Shown: positions 188-13,636 of the stretch, one piece after another
How the letters are laid out: each line of letters starts with the position of its first letter
How positions within the stretch are numbered: position 1 is the first letter of the stretch
Assembly (NCBI GenBank): GCA_016125285.1
Contig: WGMA01000076.1
Location: 1 to 38,261 of the forward strand
Direction of reading: 5' to 3'
Source: Phycisphaera sp.
Lineage (GTDB): Bacteria > Planctomycetota > Phycisphaerae > Phycisphaerales > Zrk34
DNA: 38,261 nucleotides
Notes under the pieces: generated by a model
Database searches by the model: none
Seen by the model: only the letters and a program-made list of their open reading frames with translations
Told to the model about the DNA's origin: nothing
Translations under genes and position numbers: made by a program

Positions 188-757
188 TCACCGCAGGCGG
201 GCGTAGATGCACGTGTCGCGCAGCGAGCCGTCGGGTTCGGTCATGTGCTGACGCAGCGTGGCTTCGAGGTCGAACCCGGCCTTCTCGGCGACGCGGCGGC
301 TGGCGGCGTTGGTCGCGCTGCAGAGGATCTCGACGCGGCGGGCGGCGAGCTGTTCGAACGCAACGTCGGCGATCGCACGCGTCGCCTCCGTCGCGTAGCC
401 CCGCCCGGCGTGCGACGTGCGCACCCAGTAGCCGATCTCGAAGCGCGGCACCGACCAGTCGATGCGGTGCAGCCCGCTGGACCCGACGAAGTCGCCGGTC
501 GCCTTGTCGAAGACGTGCAGCGTGAAGTCGACACGCGCGTCCCAGCGCTCGACGGCCTCCTGCAGATGCGCGTAGGTTTCCTCGACGCCCGGCTCGCGCT
601 GCGCCCAGACCATCGTCCGCCGCAGCGCGTCGATCGACTCACGCACGGCCGCGTTGACCGCCTCGGCGTCGTGCGGATTGGGGCGGCGGATGATCAGACG
701 CGGCGACTCGAACGACGTCGGCGGCGCGGGATGGGATGAGGCGGGCGTCTCGGACAT
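188..757 (-). CDS. GNAT family N-acetyltransferase, RimJ/RimL-like
   Basis: This 189-residue protein should transfer an acetyl group from acetyl-CoA to an amine, in the RimJ/RimL branch that modifies protein N-termini or small molecules in the cytoplasm. It opens with the typical SPRLIIRRPNPHDAEAV segment (near residues 18-34). The acetyl-CoA binding motif A is RTSHAGRGYATEATRAI in the second half, followed by NAASRRVAEKAGF, the usual last helix and strand of the fold. An ORF open to 1372 extends the frame upstream, but that extension is Arg-rich, overlaps the next gene and has no family similarity, so the ATG at 757 is preferred. Its Shine-Dalgarno is weak. The substrate is unknown. Confidence 0.85.
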   Translation of the reverse strand: MSETPASSHPAPPTSFESPRLIIRRPNPHDAEAVNAAVRESIDALRRTMVWAQREPGVEETYAHLQEAVERWDARVDFTLHVFDKATGDFVGSSGLHRIDWSVPRFEIGYWVRTSHAGRGYATEATRAIADVAFEQLAARRVEILCSATNAASRRVAEKAGFDLEATLRQHMTEPDGSLRDTCIYARLR

Positions 758-873
758 GCAGCCAAGTTTAGCGACGCGGCTCGCCACGTGCTTCACACCC
801 GCAACGGCAACACCTCGCAAGCGACAGCGTTCAACGTCACCCGGATCGGTTTCGGTTGCCGGCCGTTGGTGTG

Positions 874-1311
874 TCAGGCAACCCCCGCTCGCTTGCGCAG
901 GCTCTCGATCTTTTCGCGTGCGGCGCGCGCGGCGGTGGCATCGTCGACGTGCTCGGCGATCTGCTCGTAGAGGTTGATCGCGCCGGACCAGTTGCCGATC
1001 TGCTCGGCGCGGATGGCCAGCGAGCGCAGCTGCAGCACGTTGTCGGGCAGTTCGGCCGGCGGCGTCTCCTGCGCGACCAGGTCCGCGATGCGCTTGTGGG
1101 CGCGCTCGCGTTCGCGCTCGATCGGCCACTCCATGAACGCCAGCGCGATCAGGCCGACCACGATCAGCGGCGGCACCAGCGCACCGAATGCCCACCACAT
1201 CGGATAACCAGCCTTGCGTAACACCTCGGCGATGCAGAAGAGAAGAAACGCCCCGAGCAGACAGGCGAAGATCGGATAGAGCAGCCCCAGGAATACATGG
1301 ATGTCGTTCAT
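874..1311 (-). CDS. Small membrane protein with a C-terminal TPR-like segment
   Basis: The protein has 145 residues and was not recognised as a named family. Two hydrophobic segments (about residues 6-27 and 36-59) are separated by a short loop with PMWW. They are followed by a charged ERERERAHKR stretch and a helical tail (QIGNWSGAINLYEQIAEHVD) that resembles one tetratricopeptide repeat. The start at 1311 was chosen because GGGGAC precedes it and because the upstream extension to 1380 is Arg-rich. It lies on the same strand as the peptide transporter operon, about 120 bases beyond the ATPase stop, so it may be read from the same transcript. A function cannot be assigned. Confidence 0.7.
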   Translation of the reverse strand: MNDIHVFLGLLYPIFACLLGAFLLFCIAEVLRKAGYPMWWAFGALVPPLIVVGLIALAFMEWPIERERERAHKRIADLVAQETPPAELPDNVLQLRSLAIRAEQIGNWSGAINLYEQIAEHVDDATAARAAREKIESLRKRAGVA

Positions 1312-1430
1312 CTGAGTCCCCGAAACCGTGAGGGTGAGCAACCGGCGCACAAGCCGACGCGGCCGATGACACAACCGCATTCAGCTACGCGTTAAAAGAT
1401 ATCAGATCACCTCCACGACTCAACCGATGA

Positions 1431-2558
<1,128 letters not shown>

Positions 2559-2575
2559 GGTCAATCCATCCCGAA

Positions 2576-3832
2576 TCACAGATGCGAGGACTTCTTCATG
2601 TGCGGATCGATCGCGTCGCGGAGCGATTCGCCGATGAGGTTGTAGGCGAAGACGGTCATGAAGATCGCGAAGCCGGGGAAGATCGCGATCCACCAGGTGA
2701 ACGAGCCGGTGCCCTGGAGTGCCTGATAAAGCAGTTCGCCCCAGGAAGGCCGCTGGACATCACCAACGTTGAGGAAGCTGAGCGTGGCCTCGTAGAGGAT
2801 GGCAGAGGCGACGCCGAAGCTGGCCGTGACGAGGATGGGGCCGATGCCGTTGGGCAGCATGTGACGGAATAGGATCGAACGCAGAGGCAGTCCGCATGCC
2901 TGTGCGGCGAGGACGAAATCCTGATTGCGGAGGCGGAGAAACTCGGCGCGGGTGAAGCGGGCGTATCCGGTCCAGCCGGTCAGGCCCAGAATGACCATGA
3001 TGAAATAGATATTCCTGCCGAAGAACGCGACACAGATCAGAATCAGGTAGAGCGAGGGGATGAACTCGAAGACCTCGACGAGGCGCATGCCGACGAGATC
3101 GACAGCCCTGCTGAAGTAGCCCATGAACCCGCCGAGCACAATACCGATGACCATGGCGATGCCGGTGGCGACAAAGCCGATGGAGAGCGCGACGCGACAA
3201 GCGTGGATCATACGGCTGGCCATGTCCATGTTGTTGGCCTCGTTGCCGAGCCAGTGGTGGCGATGACGTCGTGCCTCGGTGTTGGTGGTCTCCCACCAAG
3301 CCCACCAAGGAGCGACGAGCCCGACGCCGGGCTGATCACGCAGACGGTCACGCGGCGAGTAAGGGATCGGCGCGTTGATCACGAACTGCACACGCCCCTC
3401 GCGCTCGGCGACGCGGTAGGTCTCGTAGACCTCCGGCGGCGGCTCGCCCGCCGACAACCATGCGACCAGCCACGTCAGCAGGACCACGGCCAAGACAGCC
3501 AGCGCACGAAAATGCGCTGGGACCGACTTGATGAAGTACGCGATTGCCGCCACGAAGAAGCCGAGTAACAAAGCAATGTCGAGCGGCGTGAGCGACTTGA
3601 TCATCGGCGAGGACCACTCGCCGTCCATTTTGATCAGCAAAGGCCGGCTGTTGGCGACGAGCGGGGCGAAGATCGCCAGGAACGTCAGAACGACAATCCA
3701 CGCCAGGCCGAGGCGAGCGCCCCATCTGACAAACGTGTCACTCAAGACGCGCTGCATGTAGGTCTGCCGACGCGTAGACGACGCGCGCGGCGGCGCGGGC
3801 GCGGTGGACGGGATGGACGCGGCGTCATTCAT
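2576..3832 (-). CDS. Peptide ABC transporter permease, DppC/OppC type (second C-type subunit)
   Basis: This 418-residue inner-membrane subunit is longer than a usual DppC (about 300). It has an N-terminal membrane segment (near 30-50), then two extra hydrophobic segments (DIALLLGFFVAAIAYFIKSV and ALAVLAVVLLTWLVAWL). The canonical core follows: HWLGNEANNMDMASRMIHA aligns with the HxLGTDxxGRDxxSR entry motif, and the ATPase-contact EAA loop is AAQACGLPLRSILFRHMLPN. The start codon overlaps the preceding permease stop by 8 bases (ATGAATGA), which indicates translational coupling and overrides the longer frame to 3901. In the entry motif the usual GRD is NMD. It is the second C-type subunit in this operon. 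Confidence 0.92.
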   Translation of the reverse strand: MNDAASIPSTAPAPPRASSTRRQTYMQRVLSDTFVRWGARLGLAWIVVLTFLAIFAPLVANSRPLLIKMDGEWSSPMIKSLTPLDIALLLGFFVAAIAYFIKSVPAHFRALAVLAVVLLTWLVAWLSAGEPPPEVYETYRVAEREGRVQFVINAPIPYSPRDRLRDQPGVGLVAPWWAWWETTNTEARRHRHHWLGNEANNMDMASRMIHACRVALSIGFVATGIAMVIGIVLGGFMGYFSRAVDLVGMRLVEVFEFIPSLYLILICVAFFGRNIYFIMVILGLTGWTGYARFTRAEFLRLRNQDFVLAAQACGLPLRSILFRHMLPNGIGPILVTASFGVASAILYEATLSFLNVGDVQRPSWGELLYQALQGTGSFTWWIAIFPGFAIFMTVFAYNLIGESLRDAIDPHMKKSSHL

Positions 3833-4910
3833 AGCTGATCCTCGGGTCCGCCACGACGTACAACACATCGGCGACGAGGAATCCGAACATCGACAACACA
3901 CCCGACGCGAGCGTCACAGCCATGACCACTTCCTGGTCCTTCAGCTCGATCGACTCAAGCATCAGCTTGCCCATGCCATGGAGCGTAAAGATCGACTCGA
4001 CGATGATCGAACCGCCGATCATCGCCGGCAGCAGACTCGCGGCGACGGTCAGCAGCGGGATCAGTGAGTTGCGGAACACGTGATGCCAGAGGATGTCCTT
4101 TTCGCTGACGCCCTTGGCGCGGGCAGTACGGGTGAAGTCGGAGCGGATATTGTCAAGCACGGCGCCGCGGTTGAGCTTGCTGAGGTAGGCGAATCCGCCG
4201 TAAGTCATGCAGATGACCGGCAGGACCAGGTGCCAGATGATGTCGAGGAGCCAGCCGCGTTGCCAGCCATCGGTCGTAGTGTGCGGCAGAAAGGCCATCT
4301 GGTCGGCGCGCAGGTCATGCAGGCCCGACGTCGGGAACGCCTGCACGAACTCGTGGTTGGCCAGATACCCCTGAAGCATGACGCCTACCCAGATCGACGG
4401 CGCCGCCCATAGTGCGATCAGAAACACGCCGGTCACGACATCGAATGTCCTGCCGCCGTGCCGACCGGAGTACACCCCGGTCAGGATCGCCAAGATGTAA
4501 ATAATCGGGACGGACACCGCGTTGATCAGCACGGTGATCGGCAGCGACTCGGCGACCAGGTCAAGCACTGGGCGGTTCTTGGGGAAACTCTTGCCGAGAT
4601 CGGGCCACTTGAATCCGAACCGCCCAAGCTTATCCGGGCCAGTCTTCTGCTCGACCAATTCGAATCCAATCGGCGAGACCTTGTTGAGCCAAAGCAGGTA
4701 CTGCACCGGCACCGGCTTGTCGAGATTGAATCGCTTGCGGGTGTACTCGATGATCGCCTTTCGGTCACCCGGCTTCATCTCGCCGCCCTTGCTCAGCAGC
4801 ATTTGCACCGGGTCGCCCGGCGCGGCCTTCATGATGAAGAACACCACCAGCGTGATCCCGAACATCGTCGGGATCATTAGCAGTACGCGGCGGATCAGGT
4901 ACGTCGTCAT
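3825..4910 (-). CDS. Peptide ABC transporter permease, DppB/OppB type
   Basis: This 361-residue inner-membrane permease starts with the signature of the B subunit, MTTYLIRRVLLMIPTMFGIT, followed by APGDP near residue 31. The EAA loop that docks on the ATPase is ARAKGVSEKDILWHHVFRNS, followed by LIPLLTV. It should form the membrane channel together with a C-type partner. It begins 6 bases after the solute-binding protein stop and ends overlapping the next permease start by 8 bases, so the three genes are tightly coupled. Compared with typical DppB (about 310-340 residues) it has a longer periplasmic loop after the first helix, around residues 30-105. Confidence 0.94.
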   Translation of the reverse strand: MTTYLIRRVLLMIPTMFGITLVVFFIMKAAPGDPVQMLLSKGGEMKPGDRKAIIEYTRKRFNLDKPVPVQYLLWLNKVSPIGFELVEQKTGPDKLGRFGFKWPDLGKSFPKNRPVLDLVAESLPITVLINAVSVPIIYILAILTGVYSGRHGGRTFDVVTGVFLIALWAAPSIWVGVMLQGYLANHEFVQAFPTSGLHDLRADQMAFLPHTTTDGWQRGWLLDIIWHLVLPVICMTYGGFAYLSKLNRGAVLDNIRSDFTRTARAKGVSEKDILWHHVFRNSLIPLLTVAASLLPAMIGGSIIVESIFTLHGMGKLMLESIELKDQEVVMAVTLASGVLSMFGFLVADVLYVVADPRISYE

Positions 4911-4916
4911 CGGCGT

Positions 4917-6767
4917 TCACTGCCCCCGCTTCTGCTGGTCCTTCGGCACGTACCACTCGATGGGGTTCGGCCAGATCGACACCGAGTTCAGGCCGATCAC
5001 GGGCGTGGGTTCGATGCCGCGGATGCGCTTGTCGAACCAGACGCGCGCCTTCTGGCGGATCAGGAACGTGTACGGCTGATCCTCGTTGATGATCGCGTCA
5101 CACTGCTTCCAGATCTTCATGCGCTCGTCGCGGTTGAGCGTGACGTGCGCCTTGTCGATCAGCTTGTCGAGCTCCGGGTCGGAGTAGGAGTTGCGGTTGT
5201 CGCCCTCGGCGATCGACCGCGTGTGGAACGCCTGCTCGGGGTCGGTCTCCAGCGAGCTGGACCACGCGAGCGTGATCGCGTCGAAATCCTTCTCGTTGAG
5301 GCTCTTGAGCAGAAGCTGCCACTTCTGCGGATTGAGGTTGAGCTTGATACCCGCACGCGCGAGGTTGTCGTGCACGAATAGCACGATCTTCTTCGAGAAG
5401 TCGGAGCCCGCGGGGTAGACCAGCTCGAACTCGAACGGTGTGCCGTCCGGCTTGAACATCGTGCCGTTCGCGTCGCGTTTGAACCCGAGCGACTCGAGCT
5501 GCTTGATTGCGCGGTCGGGGTCGTAGGGCCAGCGCTCGACCTCGTGGTTGAACTGATCGCTGAGGTGGTGGAACGGGCCGTGCGCAACGCTGCCTATGCC
5601 CAGGTAAACTTCGTCGAGCAGGCGCTGGCGGTCGATCAGCATCGTCATCGCCTGCCGCACCCGCTTGTCGGCGAAGATGGTCGGCTTGCCCTTGCGCTGC
5701 TCGTTCCACGCGAGGTAGTTGTAGCCGAAGCGGGCGCTATCGTACTCGAAGTGCTGAGTCTGCTTGAGCAGCGACTGGTCCTTGAGCATCTCCTGGTGCT
5801 GGTCGGGCAGCGGCTGGATCGCGTCGAGTTCGCCGTTCTTAAACGTGATCAGCTCCGTGGTGTCGTTCTCGATAATGCGCCAGATGATGCGGTCCCACGG
5901 CCCGGGCTCGCCCCAGTAACGCTCGTTGCGGAGCAGCTCGACCTGAGTGCCGGGCGTGTATTGGTCGTAATCGCGCATACGGTACGGACCGGTGCCGACC
6001 ATCAGGCAGGTGTGCTCGCGGATTTGACGCTTGGTGTACTTTTCGAAGATGTGCTTCGGCAGCACGCTGATGCTCAGGGCACGGTCGACGCTCTCGAAGA
6101 ACGGCTTTTCGAAGTGGAATCGGACCTCCAGCGGGCCGAGCTTCTCGACCTTGGTGATGATCTTGTACCACTCCCGCATGCGTCCGTCGGTGATCTCAGG
6201 ATCCATGGTCATGTCGTAGGAGTAGATCACGTCGTCGGCGGACATCGGGTGGCCGTCGGAGAAGGTGACGTTGTCGCGGAGCTGGACGGTGAGGGTCAGG
6301 CCGTCGGGCGATTCCTGCCAGCCGCGCGCCAGCAGCGGGATGGTCTTGCGGGTGGTGTAGTCGGTGGTGCCGAGCGTCTCGACGACCTTGGCCTGGACGA
6401 TCGTGGCATACAGATCCTGCGACATGAGGGGATTGAGTGTGGGTGGCGCGGCCGAGAAGCTCTCGACGTACCAGTCGCCGCGCGCGTAGTCGGGCTTCTG
6501 CTCCTGCTTACGGATGCGGGCGAACACGTCAGCGGCGGCGCTGTCGGCGCCGTTGCCGCTGCCGCCGTCGGCGACCTGGATATGCCCCTCGCTAATGGCG
6601 CGGCGGAGGGACGTGATGTCCTGGGTCAGCGAGCTCATCGACTTGTCGATCTGGTTGAGACGATCCCACTGGCGGTCGTACTCGGCCATCATCAGCCACA
6701 TCGACACGAGGATCGATGCGAGCAGCACCAGCACGGCGAGGTCCTTGAATCCGAATCGGTTTTCCAT
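4917..6767 (-). CDS. Membrane-anchored peptide-type ABC transporter solute-binding protein (SBP_bac_5 family)
   Basis: This 616-residue protein should capture peptides or similar solutes outside the inner membrane and deliver them to the permeases. The family 5 fold is clear: FSAAPPTLNPLMSQDLYA, LARGWQESPDGLTLTVQLRD, FSDGHPMSADDVIYSYD, GTGPYRM and KRVRQAMTMLIDR. The N-terminus is unusual. It has no lipobox and no obvious cleavage site. Instead there is a transmembrane helix (about 9-27) followed by a heptad-like charged segment (28-60) and a Gly/Ser/Ala linker (65-80), so it probably stays tethered through an uncleaved anchor and a short coiled coil. The start at 6767 has a GAGG Shine-Dalgarno and follows the first permease by 44 bases. 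Confidence 0.93.
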   Translation of the reverse strand: MENRFGFKDLAVLVLLASILVSMWLMMAEYDRQWDRLNQIDKSMSSLTQDITSLRRAISEGHIQVADGGSGNGADSAAADVFARIRKQEQKPDYARGDWYVESFSAAPPTLNPLMSQDLYATIVQAKVVETLGTTDYTTRKTIPLLARGWQESPDGLTLTVQLRDNVTFSDGHPMSADDVIYSYDMTMDPEITDGRMREWYKIITKVEKLGPLEVRFHFEKPFFESVDRALSISVLPKHIFEKYTKRQIREHTCLMVGTGPYRMRDYDQYTPGTQVELLRNERYWGEPGPWDRIIWRIIENDTTELITFKNGELDAIQPLPDQHQEMLKDQSLLKQTQHFEYDSARFGYNYLAWNEQRKGKPTIFADKRVRQAMTMLIDRQRLLDEVYLGIGSVAHGPFHHLSDQFNHEVERWPYDPDRAIKQLESLGFKRDANGTMFKPDGTPFEFELVYPAGSDFSKKIVLFVHDNLARAGIKLNLNPQKWQLLLKSLNEKDFDAITLAWSSSLETDPEQAFHTRSIAEGDNRNSYSDPELDKLIDKAHVTLNRDERMKIWKQCDAIINEDQPYTFLIRQKARVWFDKRIRGIEPTPVIGLNSVSIWPNPIEWYVPKDQQKRGQ

Positions 6768-6811
6768 GTCGCCTCAGCGGAATGGGGTTCTTCGAGTTTG
6801 TCCTGCGTGCG

Positions 6812-7792
6812 TCAGCGTTTCTTGGCGCGCGGGTCGTAACGGTCACGCAACCCGTCGCCCATGAAGTTCAGCGCCAGCAGCGTAGCGCCCAGCAGCAGGC
6901 ACGGCCAACCCAGCAGCCACAGGTGGCTCTTGACCGGGTTCAGCTCCGTTAGTCCGTCCGATGCGAGATTGCCCCAGCTCGGCAGCGGCGGCTGCACACC
7001 GATGCCCAGGAAACTCAGGAACGATTCCTGCAGGATCGCCTGCGGCACGGTGAGCGTAGTATAGACGATGATGGGGCCGATCAGGTTCGGCAGGATGTGA
7101 CGCAGCAGGATCCGCGGCGTCGAGCAACCCGTCGCCCGCGCCGCCTCGATGAACGGCTGGCCCTTGAGGCTCAGCACCTGCCCGCGCACCACGCGCGCCA
7201 GCGTCAGCCAACTCACCGCGCCGATCGCCAGCAGCAGCGTCACCACGTTGCCCGCCGTCGAGCCGATCACCTTCGACATCATCGGCTCGAACGCCACGCT
7301 CAGCAGCACCACCAGCAGGATGTACGGCAGCCCATACAGCACATCTACTACACGCATCATCGCCGAATCTATACGCCCCCCCGCGTAACCGGCGATCATG
7401 CCCCACGACGTGCCGATGATCATCGTGATCGTCGCCGCGGCGATGCCGATGCCCAGCGAGATCGACCCGCCCAGCAGACAGCGGATCAGCATCGACCGCC
7501 CCAGACGGTCCGTGCCCATCAGGCCGCCGTCGTACACCACGGCCTCGTCGCCCTCGCCTACGGATTTCGATTCCCCGGGCCTCAGCAGCTTGGCCGGCAG
7601 TTGCTGCGCGTCGTAGCGCGGCGACGACTCGGCGTCGTCCGGGTTCGACGGCCCCAGCGTCCACGGCAGCGAGCCGATGCACAGCAGCACCATCAGCGCC
7701 AGCACCGCCCCGCCGACCTTCGCCGCGCTGAGGCCGAACCCCAACCGCCGTTGGCCTGTCCCTTGCTCCGGGATGTTCGCGATCTGCGACAT
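6812..7792 (-). CDS. Peptide ABC transporter permease, DppC/OppC type (first C-type subunit)
   Basis: This 326-residue inner-membrane subunit is the first gene of the transporter operon. The entry motif LMGTDRLGRSMLIRCLLGG and the EAA loop EAARATGCSTPRILLRHILP are canonical, and it ends with FMGDGLRDRYDPRAKKR, the standard C-terminus of DppC. Between helix 1 and the entry motif is an insert of about 60 residues containing SPRYDAQQLPAKLLRPGE. The ATG at 7792 was chosen because the extension to 7888 lacks permease features. Its Shine-Dalgarno is weak, so other starts nearby remain possible. About 100 bases separate it from the prepilin gene upstream on the same strand. Confidence 0.9.
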   Translation of the reverse strand: MSQIANIPEQGTGQRRLGFGLSAAKVGGAVLALMVLLCIGSLPWTLGPSNPDDAESSPRYDAQQLPAKLLRPGESKSVGEGDEAVVYDGGLMGTDRLGRSMLIRCLLGGSISLGIGIAAATITMIIGTSWGMIAGYAGGRIDSAMMRVVDVLYGLPYILLVVLLSVAFEPMMSKVIGSTAGNVVTLLLAIGAVSWLTLARVVRGQVLSLKGQPFIEAARATGCSTPRILLRHILPNLIGPIIVYTTLTVPQAILQESFLSFLGIGVQPPLPSWGNLASDGLTELNPVKSHLWLLGWPCLLLGATLLALNFMGDGLRDRYDPRAKKR

Positions 7793-7891
7793 CGGCCCGC
7801 AATCATACCGTAACGCCGCGCGGGCTTCACATTTCACAAAGACACGACCGGCCAGCGCCGCGCGAAACCCGTCCGCGCCGCGCGTCACACG

Positions 7892-8680
7892 TCACTTCCA
7901 CTCCCCCGACCAGTGCAGATCCCACAGCCCCTCGAACTCCACACGCCGCGACGAGCCGTCCATGAATCCGATGTTCACGCCGCGCTTGTGCCGGTCGAGG
8001 CAGTAGCGGTACATCCAGCCCGGCGCCGTGGGATTGTCGAAGTCCGTCGGCATCGGGTCCGAAGGGCGCGGCCAGCCGCAGTCCGCCCACTTCCCGTCGC
8101 CGATGATCGCGATCTCCGACGTGTTCTTCGGCGTCGACGTGATGGTGTTGATGAAGTAGCGATTGGGCCGCGACCCGCTCGCGCCCGAGCCGACCACCCG
8201 CGGGTCCTCCGTCCAGTTGTTGATGCCGTACCCGCCGTAATCATCGGGCTCGGCGCCGACGTGCGCCGGGGGCAGCGCGAGGTACGCGTGGGTCGACGAG
8301 CCGAAACCGCTGACGCCCTCGCGCGCCGGCTCCGGGGCCACCGGACACGCCAGCACGCCCTTGTCCTTCGCGTACCACGGCCGCAGCGCCACGAACCAGT
8401 GCTTGCCCTTGCCGGTCTGCCAGCCGCCGTTGCTCTGCCAGCTCGCCACGCACCGGCCCTCGTTGTCGTTGGTGTACATGTACCACGCCGTCATCAGCTG
8501 CTTGACGTGCGCCCCGCACACGACCGTCTTCGCCTGCAGCCGCGCATCGACCAGCGACGGCAGCAGGATCGCGATCAGCAGCGCGATGATCGCCACCACG
8601 ACCAGCAGTTCGATCAACGTGAACCCCCGCCGCGCAGCACAAGCGCCGCGCGGCATCCGCTCGAGATGAGTGTTTCGCAT
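7892..8680 (-). CDS. Prepilin-like protein with H-X9-DG C-terminus
   Basis: This 262-residue protein has a type IV prepilin N-terminus: a basic leader, RRG at 17-19, then [20 protein letters not shown] with the glutamate at +5 after the expected prepilin peptidase cut (G19/F20). The C-terminal part carries [12 protein letters not shown], an H-X9-DG motif typical of the large planctomycete pseudopilin families related to DUF1559. Two cysteines (CGAHVK and ACPVAPEP) may form a disulfide. Such proteins are probably assembled or displayed at the cell surface; individual roles are not known. AGGAG lies about 9 bases upstream of the ATG, and a promoter-like pair is seen at 8708-8736. Confidence 0.92.
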
Positions 8681-8707
8681 GTGTACGTGCTCCTAAGCTC
8701 GACTCCG

Positions 8708-8736
8708 ATTATGACCGAACGGCCCGGCTCGATAAA
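8708..8736 (-). promoter_or_regulatory. Possible sigma-70 promoter of the prepilin gene at 7892-8680
   Basis: On the minus strand, TTTATC (8731-8736) and CATAAT (8708-8713) are separated by exactly 17 bases, about 28 bases before the start codon. The surrounding DNA is GC-rich, which makes the AT-rich hexamers stand out. This is inferred from sequence only. Confidence 0.4.
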
Positions 8737-8826
8737 CCCGCTTTTGAAAATCACAGCGTTCTGATAAATCCAAGCGGTCGCCGCGTTCGGGGCTCCAGTA
8801 GTCAGGGGTCAGACCCGATCGTGCTG

Positions 8827-8861
8827 CCCCCTGACACCTGTCCCCTGTCTCCTGTCCCCTG
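8827..8861. repeat. CCTGTCTCCTGT-type intergenic repeat
   Basis: The stretch is built from repeats of the word CCTGTC/CCCCTG. Part of it (CCCCTGAC) is inverted relative to GTCAGGGG at 8801-8808. The same words recur at 36110-36140 in inverted orientation and at 36222-36240. Both places also adjoin a terminator hairpin. Confidence 0.6.
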
Positions 8862-8918
8862 AAATAAAACGGCCCGCGCGACACGTCCGTAGGGTGAAGA
8901 CGGACGGCCGCGCGGGCC
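8861..8918 (-). terminator. Intrinsic terminator-like hairpin (minus strand)
   Basis: A perfect 10-bp arm pair (GGCCCGCGCG at 8871-8880 with CGCGCGGGCC at 8909-8918) encloses a second 7-bp pair (CGTCCGT 8884-8890 with ACGGACG 8900-8906) and a 9-base loop. Read on the minus strand the stem is followed by GTTTTATTTC. It would stop transcripts of the short ORFs at 9009-9721. A plus-strand role is unlikely because the base run on that side is not T-rich. Confidence 0.6.
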
Positions 8919-9008
8919 TTACTCCCCTGAACACACGCATGCATCCCTCACCGAATGCACGACCCCGAGAACAGGCACGACGTCACTGACGATGCTCCCC
9001 TCGCTTCG

Positions 9009-9308
9009 TCAGCCCGACGCTTCCATCGCCGCCCCATCGGCGATGCGTTTCCGCACGGGTCGATAGCGATGCTGGGTCCTCATCACCACCGCGCCGGCGG
9101 GTTTGGTGGACGCGGGCGGACCGGCCGAGGGATGACTGCGACACCATCGCGCGGCGCCCGGTTGTCGCGCCGACTGCGCCAGCCTCGCCGGCAGAGCCAC
9201 CGCCGTCACGCCGTGCGCCGATTGCGCCAGCGCCGTCGTCAGCTCCATCAGGATCGGCGGCTCTTCGAGTGTCACGGTTCGTCCTCGCGTCAGGTCCTTG
9301 AGTATCAC
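9009..9308 (-). CDS. Hypothetical protein, third ORF of a putative small-ORF unit
   Basis: No family was recognised for this 99-residue ORF. It starts with GTG and reads MILKDLTRGRTVTLEEPPIL, then a helical segment rich in Leu and Ala (MELTTALAQSAHGVTAVALP) and a Pro/Arg-rich tail. AGGGAG lies 9 bases before the start. The start overlaps the stop of the preceding ORF by 3 bases, which would allow coupled translation. Codon choice in the first 50 codons is close to that of neighbouring genes. A terminator-like hairpin follows about 90 bases downstream. Real coding status is uncertain. Confidence 0.4.
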   Translation of the reverse strand: MILKDLTRGRTVTLEEPPILMELTTALAQSAHGVTAVALPARLAQSARQPGAARWCRSHPSAGPPASTKPAGAVVMRTQHRYRPVRKRIADGAAMEASG

Positions 9309-9604
9309 GACGCACGTCTCCCTTTCTGCATCGTGACCGACGTGGGGCCGGTCACGTTCGAGTGACGGGCCTTGGTTGATTCGTCTCGCACCGCGCCCGT
9401 CAGCAAGTGCGAGCGATCCCTATACACGCGGGCTCTTCCTCCAACTACCGCCCGCAATGCTGTCTGCGGCCAGACGGTCACACACTGCCGTGACCACGCC
9501 GCGTCTATGCCTGTCGCCGACTCCTTCCTGCGTCCCAGTCCGTCCGTGAACCGCCCGTCCGTAAGCCTCAGCGGCGCTCCGCCCCGTTGGACGTGTGCCC
9601 TCAC
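9305..9604 (-). CDS. Hypothetical Arg-rich ORF, second in the putative small-ORF unit
   Basis: This 99-residue ORF starts with GTG, with GGAG 7 bases upstream. It is Arg/Gly-rich and matches nothing I recognise. It uses AGG, AGA and GGA codons more than its neighbours, and third-position GC is lower, so it may be non-coding or recently acquired. Its start lies inside the perfect hairpin at 9589-9610, which would hide the ribosome site. Its stop overlaps the next start. The case for coding rests on the spacing and coupling, not on protein similarity. Confidence 0.25.
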   Translation of the reverse strand: MRAHVQRGGAPLRLTDGRFTDGLGRRKESATGIDAAWSRQCVTVWPQTALRAVVGGRARVYRDRSHLLTGAVRDESTKARHSNVTGPTSVTMQKGRRAS

Positions 9605-9610
9605 ACGTCC
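9589..9610. repeat. Perfect 9-bp inverted repeat with 4-base loop
   Basis: GGACGTGTG (9589-9597) is followed by CCCT and CACACGTCC (9602-9610). The hairpin covers the GTG start and part of the ribosome site of the ORF at 9305-9604, so it could control translation on the minus strand. No T-run follows on either strand, so it is not a typical terminator. Confidence 0.55.
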
Positions 9611-9619
9611 GCTCCGCGA

Positions 9620-9721
9620 CTACTTTCTCCCTTTGTCTTCGTCGCGAGGTTTGGTCTCGGTGCTCACACGGCGTTGCCGCGCGAGCGACGATTGCCACGG
9701 TCCGGTCTGCGACTCCTGCAT
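9620..9721 (-). CDS. Possible 33-residue peptide, first ORF of the putative small-ORF unit
   Basis: The ORF begins MQESQTGPWQSSLARQRRVS and ends with TETKPRDEDKGRK. It is highly charged, with no membrane segment. It is supported by a clear AGGAG placed 6-7 bases before the ATG, and it is the first such start after the sigma-54-like site at 9789-9804, about 57 bases from the expected transcription start. No similarity is known to me; it could be a leader peptide. Confidence 0.3.
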   Translation of the reverse strand: MQESQTGPWQSSLARQRRVSTETKPRDEDKGRK

Positions 9722-9788
9722 AACGATCTCCTACGGATTGCCGACGAGTCATCCCGCCGTAGTGTCGTGTCGATTCGCAAGGTCATTA

Positions 9789-9804
9789 CGCAATCACTGT
9801 GCCA
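9789..9804 (-). promoter_or_regulatory. Candidate sigma-54 (-24/-12) promoter
   Basis: The minus strand reads CTGGCAC-AGTGA-TTGCG (9789-9805 including the leading C). It matches the conserved YTGGCAC-N5-TTGC core of sigma-54 promoters exactly; only the last preferred W is a G. The expected transcription start is near 9779. It faces the short ORFs at 9620-9721, 9305-9604 and 9009-9308, not the deacylase. No enhancer-binding-protein site was identified. Confidence 0.45.
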
Positions 9805-9962
9805 GTTGCCGACAAGCCGCCCCCAGGCGAGGAAAATACCGATCAAACGCCGTAGAATCGGCCGATAGATTCAAACGACGCCCGCACCGGGGCGCATCCG
9901 GCGTGCAGCGCGTGGGCAACCGCTCACCGGATGCTCAATATTCAGGCGGATCCGTATTCGTC

Positions 9963-11624
9963 ATGCTCGACATTCGGTTCGACAACGCGCGACTGTTCAC
10001 CGGCGACGCCCCCGACGACGCCTCCGGCAAGGTCCCCGTCGCCGCACAGGGCGAGACACGCACCGTCGGCGTCCGCGACGGGCGCATCGTCCTCAACGAC
10101 ACGCTCTGCTCCGACACGCCGCCCGACGCACGCCGTGTGATCGACGCCAACGGCGCCGCCCTGTGCCCCGGCTTCATCGACATCCACGCCCACTCCGACT
10201 ACGCCGCGCTCTACGCCCCCACCGCGCTGAGCAAGGTCCTCGCCGGGTACACCACGGAGCTCAACGGCAACTGCGGCATGGGCGCGTTCCCGCTGCAAGG
10301 CCCGATGCTCGACTACCGCCAGGCCGAGTACGCCCCCTACGGGCTGACCATCGACTGGCACACCGTCGACGAATACTTCGACCGCTGCGCCGCGCGGCCG
10401 ATGGCGCTGAACCAGGGCCTGCTGCTCGGCCAGGGCACGCTGCGCGGGTCGATCTGCGGGTTCGACAACCGCCCCGCCACCGCCGAGGAAAAACGCGCCA
10501 TGCGCGACCACGTCGTGCACGCCATGGAGCGAGGCTGCTACGGCATGTCGACCGGCCTGGTCTACGCGCCAGGCTCCTTCGCGTCACGCGGCGAGATCCT
10601 CCTGCTCGCCGAGATCGTCGCCCACTACGGCGGCCTCTACGCCTCACACCTGCGCAGCGAGTCCGACACGCTCAGCGAGGCGCTCGACGAGTTCCTGTCC
10701 GTATGCGAGCACACGCTCTGCCGCGCCCAGTACAGCCACATCAAGGCCGCGGGACCCCGCAACTGGCACAAGGTCAAAGAGGTCCGCCAGCGCATGGACG
10801 CCGCCCGCGCCAGGGGCGTCGAGCTCTACGGCGACCGCTACCCGTACAACGCCAGCTGCACCGACCTGGCCACGATCCTGCTGCCCAATGACGCGCTGAG
10901 CGGCGGGCCCGCGGCGATCGTCGAACGCCTGCGCGACCGCGACACGCGCGCCGAGCTCAAGCGGCGCATCATCGAACGCGAGCAGATCGACGTCGACGGA
11001 CCCGGCTGGTACGACCGCGTGATGATCTCCGCCGTGCACGACCCGGCGCTCCGCCCCGCCGAGGGACGCACGCTGGCCAAGTGGGCCGCGCAGTCGAACC
11101 ACGAGGGCGACCCGCTCGACGCCGCGTTCGATCTGGTCATCACCGACGGCGCGCTGACGTACGCGATCCACTTTTCGATGAGCGACGAGAACCTGCGTGA
11201 GATCCTGTCGTGGTCCGACGTGATGATCGGCTCCGACGCGTGCATCCGCGACAAGGTCGGCGACGCCTGCGACGACCACCCGCACCCCCGCGCCTTCGGC
11301 ACCCCCGCCCGCGTGCTCGGCCAGTTCGCCCGCGACGCCGGGCTCATCGACCTCGTCACCGCCATCCACAAACAGACCGGCATGCCCGCCGACGTCATGC
11401 GGCTCAAGAACCGCGGCCGCATCCGCAACGGCTACGCCGCCGATCTCGTCGTCTTCGACCCCGACACCATCGCCGACCGCGCCACGTACGAATCCCCCGC
11501 GCAGACCCCCGCCGGGATCAAGTGGGTCATCATCAACGGCACGGTCGTCGCGGAACCGAACGGCGACAACACCGCGTCACCGACGGGCAAGACGCCGGGG
11601 CAACTGCTCAAGTTCCGCGGGTGA
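9963..11624 (+). CDS. N-acyl-D-amino-acid deacylase (amidohydrolase superfamily)
   Basis: This 553-residue enzyme should hydrolyse the acyl group from N-acyl-D-amino acids or related D-residue peptides using a bound zinc. Visible family marks are the metal-binding DIHAHSDYA (H75, H77), the bridging cysteine in NGNCGMG (C104), ASHLRSES (H229), QYSHIKAAG (H259), the catalytic aspartate in IGSDACIRD (D425), and HPHPRAFGT. The C-terminus GYAADLVVFDPDTIAD is the usual amidohydrolase strand. The start at 9963 begins the N-terminal beta domain (MLDIRFDNARLFTG); its Shine-Dalgarno is poor. No signal peptide is evident, so it is probably cytoplasmic. The real substrate is unknown; a link to the nearby peptide transporter is only suggestive. 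Confidence 0.9.
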   Translation: MLDIRFDNARLFTGDAPDDASGKVPVAAQGETRTVGVRDGRIVLNDTLCSDTPPDARRVIDANGAALCPGFIDIHAHSDYAALYAPTALSKVLAGYTTELNGNCGMGAFPLQGPMLDYRQAEYAPYGLTIDWHTVDEYFDRCAARPMALNQGLLLGQGTLRGSICGFDNRPATAEEKRAMRDHVVHAMERGCYGMSTGLVYAPGSFASRGEILLLAEIVAHYGGLYASHLRSESDTLSEALDEFLSVCEHTLCRAQYSHIKAAGPRNWHKVKEVRQRMDAARARGVELYGDRYPYNASCTDLATILLPNDALSGGPAAIVERLRDRDTRAELKRRIIEREQIDVDGPGWYDRVMISAVHDPALRPAEGRTLAKWAAQSNHEGDPLDAAFDLVITDGALTYAIHFSMSDENLREILSWSDVMIGSDACIRDKVGDACDDHPHPRAFGTPARVLGQFARDAGLIDLVTAIHKQTGMPADVMRLKNRGRIRNGYAADLVVFDPDTIADRATYESPAQTPAGIKWVIINGTVVAEPNGDNTASPTGKTPGQLLKFRG

Positions 11625-11700
11625 CCCCCACTCAACGCCACGCCGCCGGGATCGGGCCGGCACGGTCCGGCTCGGAATGCTCGCCCCCGATACCGCGTCA

Positions 11701-11816
11701 ATTTTGCTCGATCCCGCCAAAATATTCGTTTAGATTAGAGATTCCGGGGGAATCTTTACCTACGTATCAGTTAAACCGCCACGCATCAATCCTTGCCGTC
11801 AAGGAGCGATCCAATG
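11701..11816 (+). promoter_or_regulatory. Conserved upstream block, copy 1
   Basis: In order it has ATTTTGCT and ATCCCGC (11701-11717), TAGATT at 11731-11736, CTTTACC ending at 11760, then GGAGCGATC (11803-11811) and ATGGG (11814). The same words with nearly the same spacing occur at 12728-12846. The TTGCTC to TAGATT spacing is 21 bases in both copies, too long for a normal sigma-70 promoter, so another sigma factor or an RNA element is possible. Confidence 0.5.
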
Positions 11817-11866
11817 GGCCACGCCGACACCGCCAGCCGGAGCCGCGCGATCACCGCAAAAAAGGC

Positions 11867-11895
11867 TTCCGATCCGGGACCCGGTCGTTTATACT
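11867..11895 (+). promoter_or_regulatory. Possible sigma-70 promoter just before the prepilin start
   Basis: TTCCGA (11867-11872) and TATACT (11890-11895) are 17 bases apart, about 39 bases before the ATG at 11934. This site lies in the stretch that is absent from the second copy of the block. Confidence 0.4.
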
Positions 11896-11933
11896 TGGGC
11901 CATCCCAATCGGAGTCGTGGCTGCGAGGACCTT

Positions 11934-12704
11934 ATGCGCCTTCGACTCTGTTGCACCCGCCTCAACACAACCAGCCTCACTGACTCGCCACGGTGTTTGT
12001 CCGCGCCGACCTCGCGGCGTGGTTTCACGCTCGTTGAGCTGGTAGTGGTCGTGTCGATCATCACGCTGCTGATCGCGATCCTGCTGCCGGCGATGAAGCA
12101 GGCGAAGACCAACGCGCGTACCGTGCGGTGCCAGATCAACGAGCGGCAGCTGATGCAGGCGCAGCACATGTACGCGTCGGACAACTACGGCATCCCGGCG
12201 CACTCGAACTGGCTGAGCAACGAGAACGGCGGCGCGAACGACATGAAGTACGCCGGGTGGCTGTACAAGTGGCCGAAGCGTGCCAAGCTCAAGGACATCG
12301 AGGCCGGGGCGCTGTGGCGGTACCTCAACGATTACGACATCTACCGATGCCAGGAGCACGCCAAGCCGTGGGGCGGCACCGAGCGGATCACCAGCTACTG
12401 CCTCAACGGCTCGCTGGTGTTCTTCGGCAAGAACAACTACGCGTTCCCGCTGAACCGCTGGCGGCCGGACGACATCTGGTACTGGGAAACCGACGAGAAC
12501 AGCAACTGGTGGAACGACGGGTCGAACTTCCCGCGTGAGTTCGCCACCGGACGCCACGACCTCGGCGGCAACCGCGGCGCGGGCAACGTGGCGACCATGG
12601 ACGGCGGCGTCGAGTGGCTCAGCATCCAGGACTACCACGATCTGGCGTTCTCCAGCAAACGCACACGCCTGTGGAACGTGCCCAACGACGCCAACGGGCG
12701 GTGA
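11934..12704 (+). CDS. Prepilin-like protein
   Basis: This protein of 256 residues has a 30-residue basic leader ending SAPTSRRG, then FTLVELVVVVSIITLLIAIL, the prepilin cleavage and membrane helix (cut expected G30/F31). The tail GRHDLGGNRGAGNVATMDGG is a stretched form of the H-X9-DG motif, followed by EWL. Trp and Asn are frequent in the middle part. The ATG at 11934 has GAGG 5 bases upstream. An alternative ATG at 11814 has AGGAG and lies in frame, giving a 70-residue leader; the shorter start is preferred on leader length. It shares its upstream block with the next gene, so the two are probably paralogues under common control. Confidence 0.88.
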   Translation: MRLRLCCTRLNTTSLTDSPRCLSAPTSRRGFTLVELVVVVSIITLLIAILLPAMKQAKTNARTVRCQINERQLMQAQHMYASDNYGIPAHSNWLSNENGGANDMKYAGWLYKWPKRAKLKDIEAGALWRYLNDYDIYRCQEHAKPWGGTERITSYCLNGSLVFFGKNNYAFPLNRWRPDDIWYWETDENSNWWNDGSNFPREFATGRHDLGGNRGAGNVATMDGGVEWLSIQDYHDLAFSSKRTRLWNVPNDANGR

Positions 12705-12727
12705 CCGCCGCGCCCGATTCCGCATAG

Positions 12728-12846
12728 ATTTTGCTTAATCCCGCGCGTGTGCCGTGGTACAATCTGCTCGGCTGAGGACAATTCTTTACCGATAGCCTGA
12801 ACAGACAAGTGTCGCCGCCCGCCGGGCATTGGAGCGATCGCATGGG
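12728..12846 (+). promoter_or_regulatory. Conserved upstream block, copy 2
   Basis: ATTTTGCT and ATCCCGC (12728-12744), TACAAT (12758-12763), CTTTACC ending at 12790, GGAGCGATC (12831-12839) and ATGGG (12842) repeat the arrangement at 11701-11818. The spacing between first and third words differs by only 3 bases. Here GGAGCGATC serves directly as ribosome site of the prepilin gene. Confidence 0.55.
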
Positions 12847-13636
12847 CACGCGTTTGAAGTCGAAAGCCGCACACGCCGCGGGATTCACCCTCATCGAACT
12901 GCTGGTGGTCGTGGCGATCATCGCGCTGCTGATCGCGATCCTGCTGCCGTCGCTGAACCGGGCGCGCGAGTCGGCCCGTCGCGTGGTGTGCTCCAGCCAG
13001 CTCCACCAACTCGCCCTGCTCGACATCACCTACGCCAACGAGAACAAGGGCTACATCATCTCCGGCAAGCGCGACAACGGCGTCGAGCACACGCCGTGGA
13101 TCTCCAGCAAGATGCACGCCTACTACCTGACGTACACCGGCATCCCCGAGGGCGCGGTCAAGGCGCCCAGCGGCGGCATCTACGACAAGGGACGCAGCCC
13201 CATGCTGACGTGCCCGAACTACGGCGAGGGGTTCGGCAGCACCGCACGCGTCGTCAACGTCGGCTGGGTCATCGGCTACAACTACCTCGGCGGCCACCCC
13301 GCCATCGAGAAGTTCAACCACGACAACCCCATCGCCGGCAGCACCAACGGCCAGTGGCAGTCCGCGATCAGCATGACCGACATCGGCACCGCCACGCTCT
13401 GGGCCGACTACAACAGCTGGTCGCCCGACGGATGGACCTTCATCGCCCACACCAACTACGGCCCGCTCGACATCGATGGCTACTACAACCGCTCGGTCGG
13501 CAACACGCGGCCCGAAGAGGTCGGCGGCGCCGGCGGCAACGTCAGCACGCTCGACGGCGCCGTCGTCTGGAAGTCGCTCGACGAGATGAACGAGCACCAC
13601 TCGCACACCAGCTTCCGCTACCCGGCGTACTGGTGA
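12842..13636 (+). CDS. Prepilin-like protein
   Basis: This 264-residue protein has a short basic leader ([14 protein letters not shown]) followed by [20 protein letters not shown], with cleavage expected after G14. The next helix continues [20 protein letters not shown], which is typical of planctomycete pseudopilins. Near the C-terminus, [19 protein letters not shown] is the DG-containing motif shared with the other three copies, but the histidine before it is missing. GGAG is placed 7 bases before the ATG; the frame upstream to 12809 is not used. It lies 137 bases downstream of its paralogue on the same strand, with its own copy of the conserved block between. Confidence 0.92.

Follow-up and report, generated by a model that had tools for sequence, protein, structure and literature searches.

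The DNA analyzed here, referred to as the window, is a stretch of 38,261 nucleotides (nt) from Phycisphaera sp. (GenBank assembly GCA_016125285.1, contig WGMA01000076.1). On its minus strand, a promoter of the sigma-54 type, three short open reading frames (ORFs) and a strong intrinsic terminator (Table 1) form a unit that occupies most of the window's longest gap between called genes (1345 nt, the next-longest gap being 644 nt; the gap fraction of the window as a whole, based on called genes, is 0.157). The predicted minus-strand RNA would measure ~917 nt, from ~9778 down to ~8862. A first-pass annotation made from the sequence letters had listed the three ORFs with their ribosome-binding-like motifs, the overlap between the stop codon of the second and the start of the third, and a perfect hairpin holding the GTG of the second; all of these are present at the coordinates proposed, the hairpin having a 9-bp stem. 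We suggest that the ~0.9 kb between the sigma-54 promoter and the terminator probably represent a single transcript restricted to this lineage, which perhaps encodes one small protein of unknown type.

Table 1. Features of the predicted unit and its flanking genes (positions in the window).
Feature	Position	Strand	Remarks
Sigma-54-type -24/-12 promoter, CTGGCACAGTGATTGC	9790..9805	-	predicted +1 near 9778
ORF1, 33 aa	9620..9721	-	AGGAG as ribosome-binding-like motif; hardly supported beyond chance
Perfect hairpin (9-bp stem) with the ORF2 GTG	9589..9610	-	such a stem occurs in 3.6% of 500 shuffles
ORF2, 99 aa	9305..9604	-	GGAG; codon use non-native, -0.385 bits per codon
ORF3, 99 aa	9009..9308	-	GGGAG 9 nt before GTG; start overlaps the ORF2 stop as GTGA
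Strong intrinsic terminator, stem plus TTTTATTT tail	8862..8918	-	-40.7 kcal/mol
Inverted repeat GCATCCGG-N25-CCGGATGC	9894..9934 (arms 9894-9906, 9922-9934)		upstream of the promoter
Amidohydrolase gene	9963..11624	+	divergent; upstream boundary of the unit
Pseudopilin-like protein (N_methyl) gene	7892..8680	-	next gene downstream, past the terminator

The promoter combines GG at -24 and GC at -12 with the TGGCAC-N5-TTGC spacing, and the usual distance between sigma-54 promoters and their start sites would place the first transcribed nucleotide at ~9778. The YTGGCAC-N5-TTGC site of the first-pass annotation does exist on the minus strand, although its position has to be corrected by one base (9790-9805 instead of 9789-9804). 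The exact TGGCAC-N5-TTGC occurs only once in the window; since matches with up to two mismatches number 25 in the window versus 40 in shuffles, the exact form alone is informative. The earlier estimate that such a core is expected well under once by chance agrees with the frequency of a reversed control motif, whose six sites in the 6.09-Mb genome (both strands) correspond to ~0.04 per window. Upstream of the promoter, the inverted repeat at 9894-9934 can be put forward, speculatively, as a candidate activator site; the 8-mers AGCATCCG and CATCCGGC are common to the inverted-repeat region and the region before dnaK (locus L019) of the same genome.

A genome-wide search for the same site and for rpoN, which had been recommended along with the initial description, returned 15 exact YTGGCACN5TTGC sites versus six of the reversed control, and an encoded rpoN (E-value 4e-62). 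The sigma-54 activator domain was matched 16 times in the genome, 10 times with E-values below 1e-45; weak matches were not counted because the domain model gave hits in each of 14 control genomes too. Site placement is the stronger evidence compared with site number. Fourteen of the 15 exact sites fall outside recognized genes, an outcome with a chance probability of ~7e-11 if the window's gap fraction of 0.157 is taken, and three of the six reversed-control sites overlap genes. Overlap was judged with a codon-usage gene caller trained on this genome, which alone had placed 15/15 sites outside genes; one of them (L016) lies within a 23S_rRNA_IVP gene overlooked by the caller, and as other genes may have been overlooked too, the figure of 14/15 is to be read with this reserve. 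Thirteen of the 14 sites other than the one in the window stand 23-319 nt upstream of a same-strand gene (distance to the caller-chosen start), and the genes that follow exact sites include HSP70 (dnaK), GroEL, two NMT1_2 binding proteins, a NirB-like reductase, a DksA-like zinc finger and a TIGR03067 protein. The window's site is the sole one of the 15 for which the next called gene is more than 1.1 kb away. In eight other genomes of the family, exact sites sum to 47 versus 26 for the reversed control. Excluded from every count were 26 family loci that had been scored with the own-genome codon model.

Some further observations concern individual sites. The exact sites that precede dnaK (L019) and groEL (L022) suggest that the main chaperones are under activator-dependent control in this organism. 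Two exact sites (C30:183299 and C8:20620) are located 600-700 nt from activator genes, with which they may form local regulator-target pairs. In one relative (G007), an identical TTGGCACGCATCTTGC is present in five copies (contigs C10, C17, C33 and twice in C22), which may be a repeated element bearing a site of the sigma-54 type.

At the opposite end of the unit, the terminator-like stem with a T-rich tail noticed in the first reading was recovered at 8862-8918. At -40.7 kcal/mol, it surpasses every other hairpin with a T tract in the window, whichever the strand, and none of 60 dinucleotide shuffles of the window equaled it (best value, -40.3 kcal/mol). Its tail is oriented along the minus strand, in the same direction as the promoter. 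A generic terminator scan did not list this hairpin because its loop limit was set to 8. Because the neighboring upstream gene is transcribed divergently, any transcript served by this terminator must start on the minus strand within the gap, and a crude scan of positions 6000-13000 found no sigma-70-like promoter (0.8 expected by chance). Promoter and terminator therefore support each other.

Coding content was assessed with a codon model for which 59 genes served as training set, and in which five neighboring genes score +0.40 to +0.68 bits per codon. The lengths of single ORFs mean little, since long ORFs are frequent in shuffles (at least 90 aa in 75% and at least 99 aa in 64% of them). 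Four ORFs of at least 99 aa on one strand were not seen in any of 1000 Markov shuffles, but those ORFs overlap each other; stop triplets, for their part, are not few (26 versus 19.9 expected). Shine-Dalgarno-like motifs are found on three ORFs of at least 30 aa, a number reached by 17% of shuffles. Relative to matched chance, the coding signal amounted to z 4.4 for ORF3, 2.2 for ORF2 and 1.9 for ORF1, and to z 3.1 for an ORF on the opposite strand (8955-9365). The coding likeness of ORF3 was equaled by an ORF of at least 90 aa in 4 of 3000 shuffles, and ORF3 outscored all 30 other gap ORFs of at least 90 aa in 22 kb of gap sequence from its own genome (best, -0.33), while ORF1 and ORF2 remained near chance expectation. 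The earlier proposal of small proteins of unknown type is hence weakly upheld for ORF3, not for ORF1 and ORF2; the atypical codon use that it had conceded for the second ORF is evident from the score in Table 1.

The best explanation, to which we assign a probability of roughly 0.5, is a stand-alone, lineage-specific sigma-54 unit that gives rise to the mRNA of an orphan protein, ORF3. The notion of a regulated transcript has fared well at the sequence level: the site is exact, rpoN and activators are encoded, the same site precedes chaperone and uptake genes, and the terminator is correctly oriented. We accordingly consider it quite probable, judging from sequence, that the transcription unit is real; translation of ORF3 comes close to an even chance but falls a little short of it. 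In such a scenario, an activator would bind upstream of 9806 and remodel the sigma-54 holoenzyme at 9790-9805, transcription would start near 9778 and end at the terminator near 8862, and the RNA would be translated into the 99-aa ORF3, with ORF1 and ORF2 being incidental or leader ORFs. The companion sites hint that the unit may be switched on by stress or scarce nutrients, together with chaperones and genes for substrate uptake. More tentatively, the locus might represent a newly arisen gene that has no relatives among the sampled genomes and is equipped with its own sigma-54 promoter and terminator, in a chaperone/uptake regulon, with the orphan ORF3 or a long unstructured RNA helping a single lineage respond to stress or nutrients.

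Several observations weigh against this interpretation. The site count exceeds the control by just 15 to 6, so that the numbers alone are moderate evidence, and a direct comparison of placement (14/15 exact versus 3/6 control sites outside genes) yielded P = 0.053 with these small numbers. No clear activator motif is shared among the regions upstream of the 15 exact sites. None of the three ORFs is native in codon use (ORF1, -0.23; ORF2, -0.39; ORF3, -0.08 bits per codon). Among 49 shorter gap ORFs (60-89 aa), one beats ORF3 (+0.14) and one ties with it; moreover, the signal of ORF3 is confined to its first part, the best stretch (9269-9198) being as good in 17 of 1000 shuffles, and its single-sequence structure prediction was uninformative (predicted local distance difference test, pLDDT, of 53). 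None of the three ORFs had a family match above the cut-off (ORF1 versus Pfam DUF7360, with an E-value of 0.13 and 12.5 bits relative to a cut-off of 27.6, was not used), and conservation of the unit was not shown among the sampled genomes of the class.

The homology searches covered 397 class genomes including its own, and no convincing homologue was found in the 396 others. A DNA query gave matches in 64 of the 397, those outside its own genome being short and scattered; the four inspected out of these 63 each lay within a long open frame. A protein query gave matches in 11 genomes including its own, and the other ten (7.5e-4 to 9.4e-3 per genome; seven with internal stops) were taken as chance. 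A match of ORF3 to a viral contig (31 bits, with stops, and with a short run shared with one search pattern) was not considered a convincing relative, and origin from a mobile element or phage was dismissed, with no match in phage or plasmid records or PHROGs. The lack of conservation that the first-pass annotation had named as an argument against its proposal is thus what the sampled genomes display as far as they go; the family set comprised nine genomes, none of the eight others belonging to the same genus, which places recent conservation outside their reach.

The same sigma-54 unit might instead produce a non-coding regulatory RNA that acts by base pairing or protein capture, like known sigma-54-dependent small RNAs (sRNAs), and in which the ORFs are meaningless. 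We regard this as unlikely, even though a region bracketed by promoter and terminator but devoid of native codon usage would fit such an RNA, as would the fold z of -2.5 obtained when the terminator is counted in. When the terminator is left out (8927-9779), folding is unremarkable (z -0.94; 30 shuffles), and so are windowed folds apart from two places, the terminator itself (z -5.5) and the surroundings of the 9589-9610 hairpin (z ~-2.5). At gathering score, none of 4227 Rfam families matched in the window, and four sub-threshold matches in the region were far below that score and look like chance. The idea of leader peptides on a structured regulatory RNA, raised in the initial reading, is not supported, with no fold signal past the terminator and the one 9-bp hairpin and no Rfam match. 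Because the genome encodes CsrA and the strand is rich in purines, the RNA was also examined as a possible CsrA sponge. GGA is found 27 times on the unit strand versus 6 times on the opposite strand, and A-N-GGA shows a mild excess (11 versus 4.9 in shuffles, with 9 of 500 reaching that number). The total GGA count is, however, explained by composition, as 111 of 500 shuffles reach it, and unpaired GGA (10 versus 7.2, reached by 3 of 25 shuffles) is in no clear excess, leading us to reject the sponge. An RNA of ~917 nt would also be long for sigma-54-dependent RNAs of this kind, and no relatives were found in the class genomes. On balance, an orphan mRNA for ORF3 appears more likely than a structured RNA.

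Two readings would dispense with a stand-alone sigma-54 transcript. According to one of them, the site is a relic or coincidence, that is, a decayed promoter or a chance match, and the terminator serves a transcript that starts elsewhere in the gap. The six reversed-control sites imply that the 15 may include chance matches, as the one inside a gene very likely is, and the window's site alone has no nearby gene; yet the other exact sites are placed far from randomly, the terminator needs a minus-strand start after the divergent gene, where the crude scan for sigma-70-like promoters came up empty, and six X-masked frames of the region had no Pfam match that would betray a decayed known gene. 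We consider such a relic improbable. Still less credible is a long leader of the downstream pseudopilin-like and peptide-transport genes (8680 down to 188) in which the terminator functions as a conditional attenuator. Called genes from 8680 to 188, including a peptide transporter, are all on the same strand, and the terminator does sit between the promoter and these genes. Yet 12 homologous loci, drawn from the order (92 other genomes had a match), lack the exact site on both strands, and their matches to the unit are limited to 16-26 chance bases; two looser look-alikes (L106, L110) are found more than 5 kb upstream of the first permease. The order of permease, binding protein and second permease is kept in 11 of these loci (in the twelfth, the fetched stretch ends before a second permease is seen). 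A pseudopilin match was found upstream in one locus (~3.6 kb off) and in none of nine others, the remaining two contigs ending too close to the permease. A conserved leader role is therefore unlikely.

In comparison with known systems, the interest of the unit lies in its being an orphan regulon member and not in any novelty of its type. GlmY, NrsZ and CrcZ are sRNAs that depend on sigma-54, and CsrB and RsmZ are sponge RNAs. With the latter two, the unit shares a GGA-rich strand and a genome that encodes CsrA, but differs in that its GGA count is compositional and unpaired GGA is not clearly in excess. The quorum regulatory RNA (Qrr) is likewise a sigma-54 product, according to the title of a published account (PMC10162802). 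Like these sigma-54-dependent sRNAs, the unit combines a sigma-54 promoter and an intrinsic terminator around a non-annotated intergenic region; unlike them, it has no fold signal, Rfam match or relatives, and its length is ~917 nt. Among the papers listed in literature searches, no mapped sigma-54 RNA from this group was seen, which does not prove absence. Chaperones form a predicted sigma-54 group in Planctomycetota according to a published regulon prediction (PMC12316311), with which the exact sites before dnaK and groEL agree; the relevant passages deal with protein-coding orthologous groups, and 'small RNA' was not found in its main text. If real, the unit would be a clean case of an unannotated unit recognized by its control signals and not by coding content, and would suggest that codon-usage gene calling misses members of the sigma-54 regulon; more of them could be found by searching for exact sites that have no gene within 400 nt and are followed by a strong downstream terminator.

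As to the flanking genes, the start of the amidohydrolase gene at 9963 matches that of a 60% identical homologue in another family genome, in which the upstream sequence differs. In view of this agreement, the plus-strand open frame 9372-9962 probably does not belong to the amidohydrolase gene. When the amidohydrolase was used to query the named genome collection, five distant relatives (26-28% identity) came up, with no useful neighbor. Between the terminator and the pseudopilin-like gene, positions 8796-8862 form a G-rich stretch of short repeats with inverted copies of TCAGGGGTCAG. Further downstream, 188-7888 harbor a peptide transporter operon in which permease genes flank a binding-protein gene, with an acetyltransferase domain at the end.
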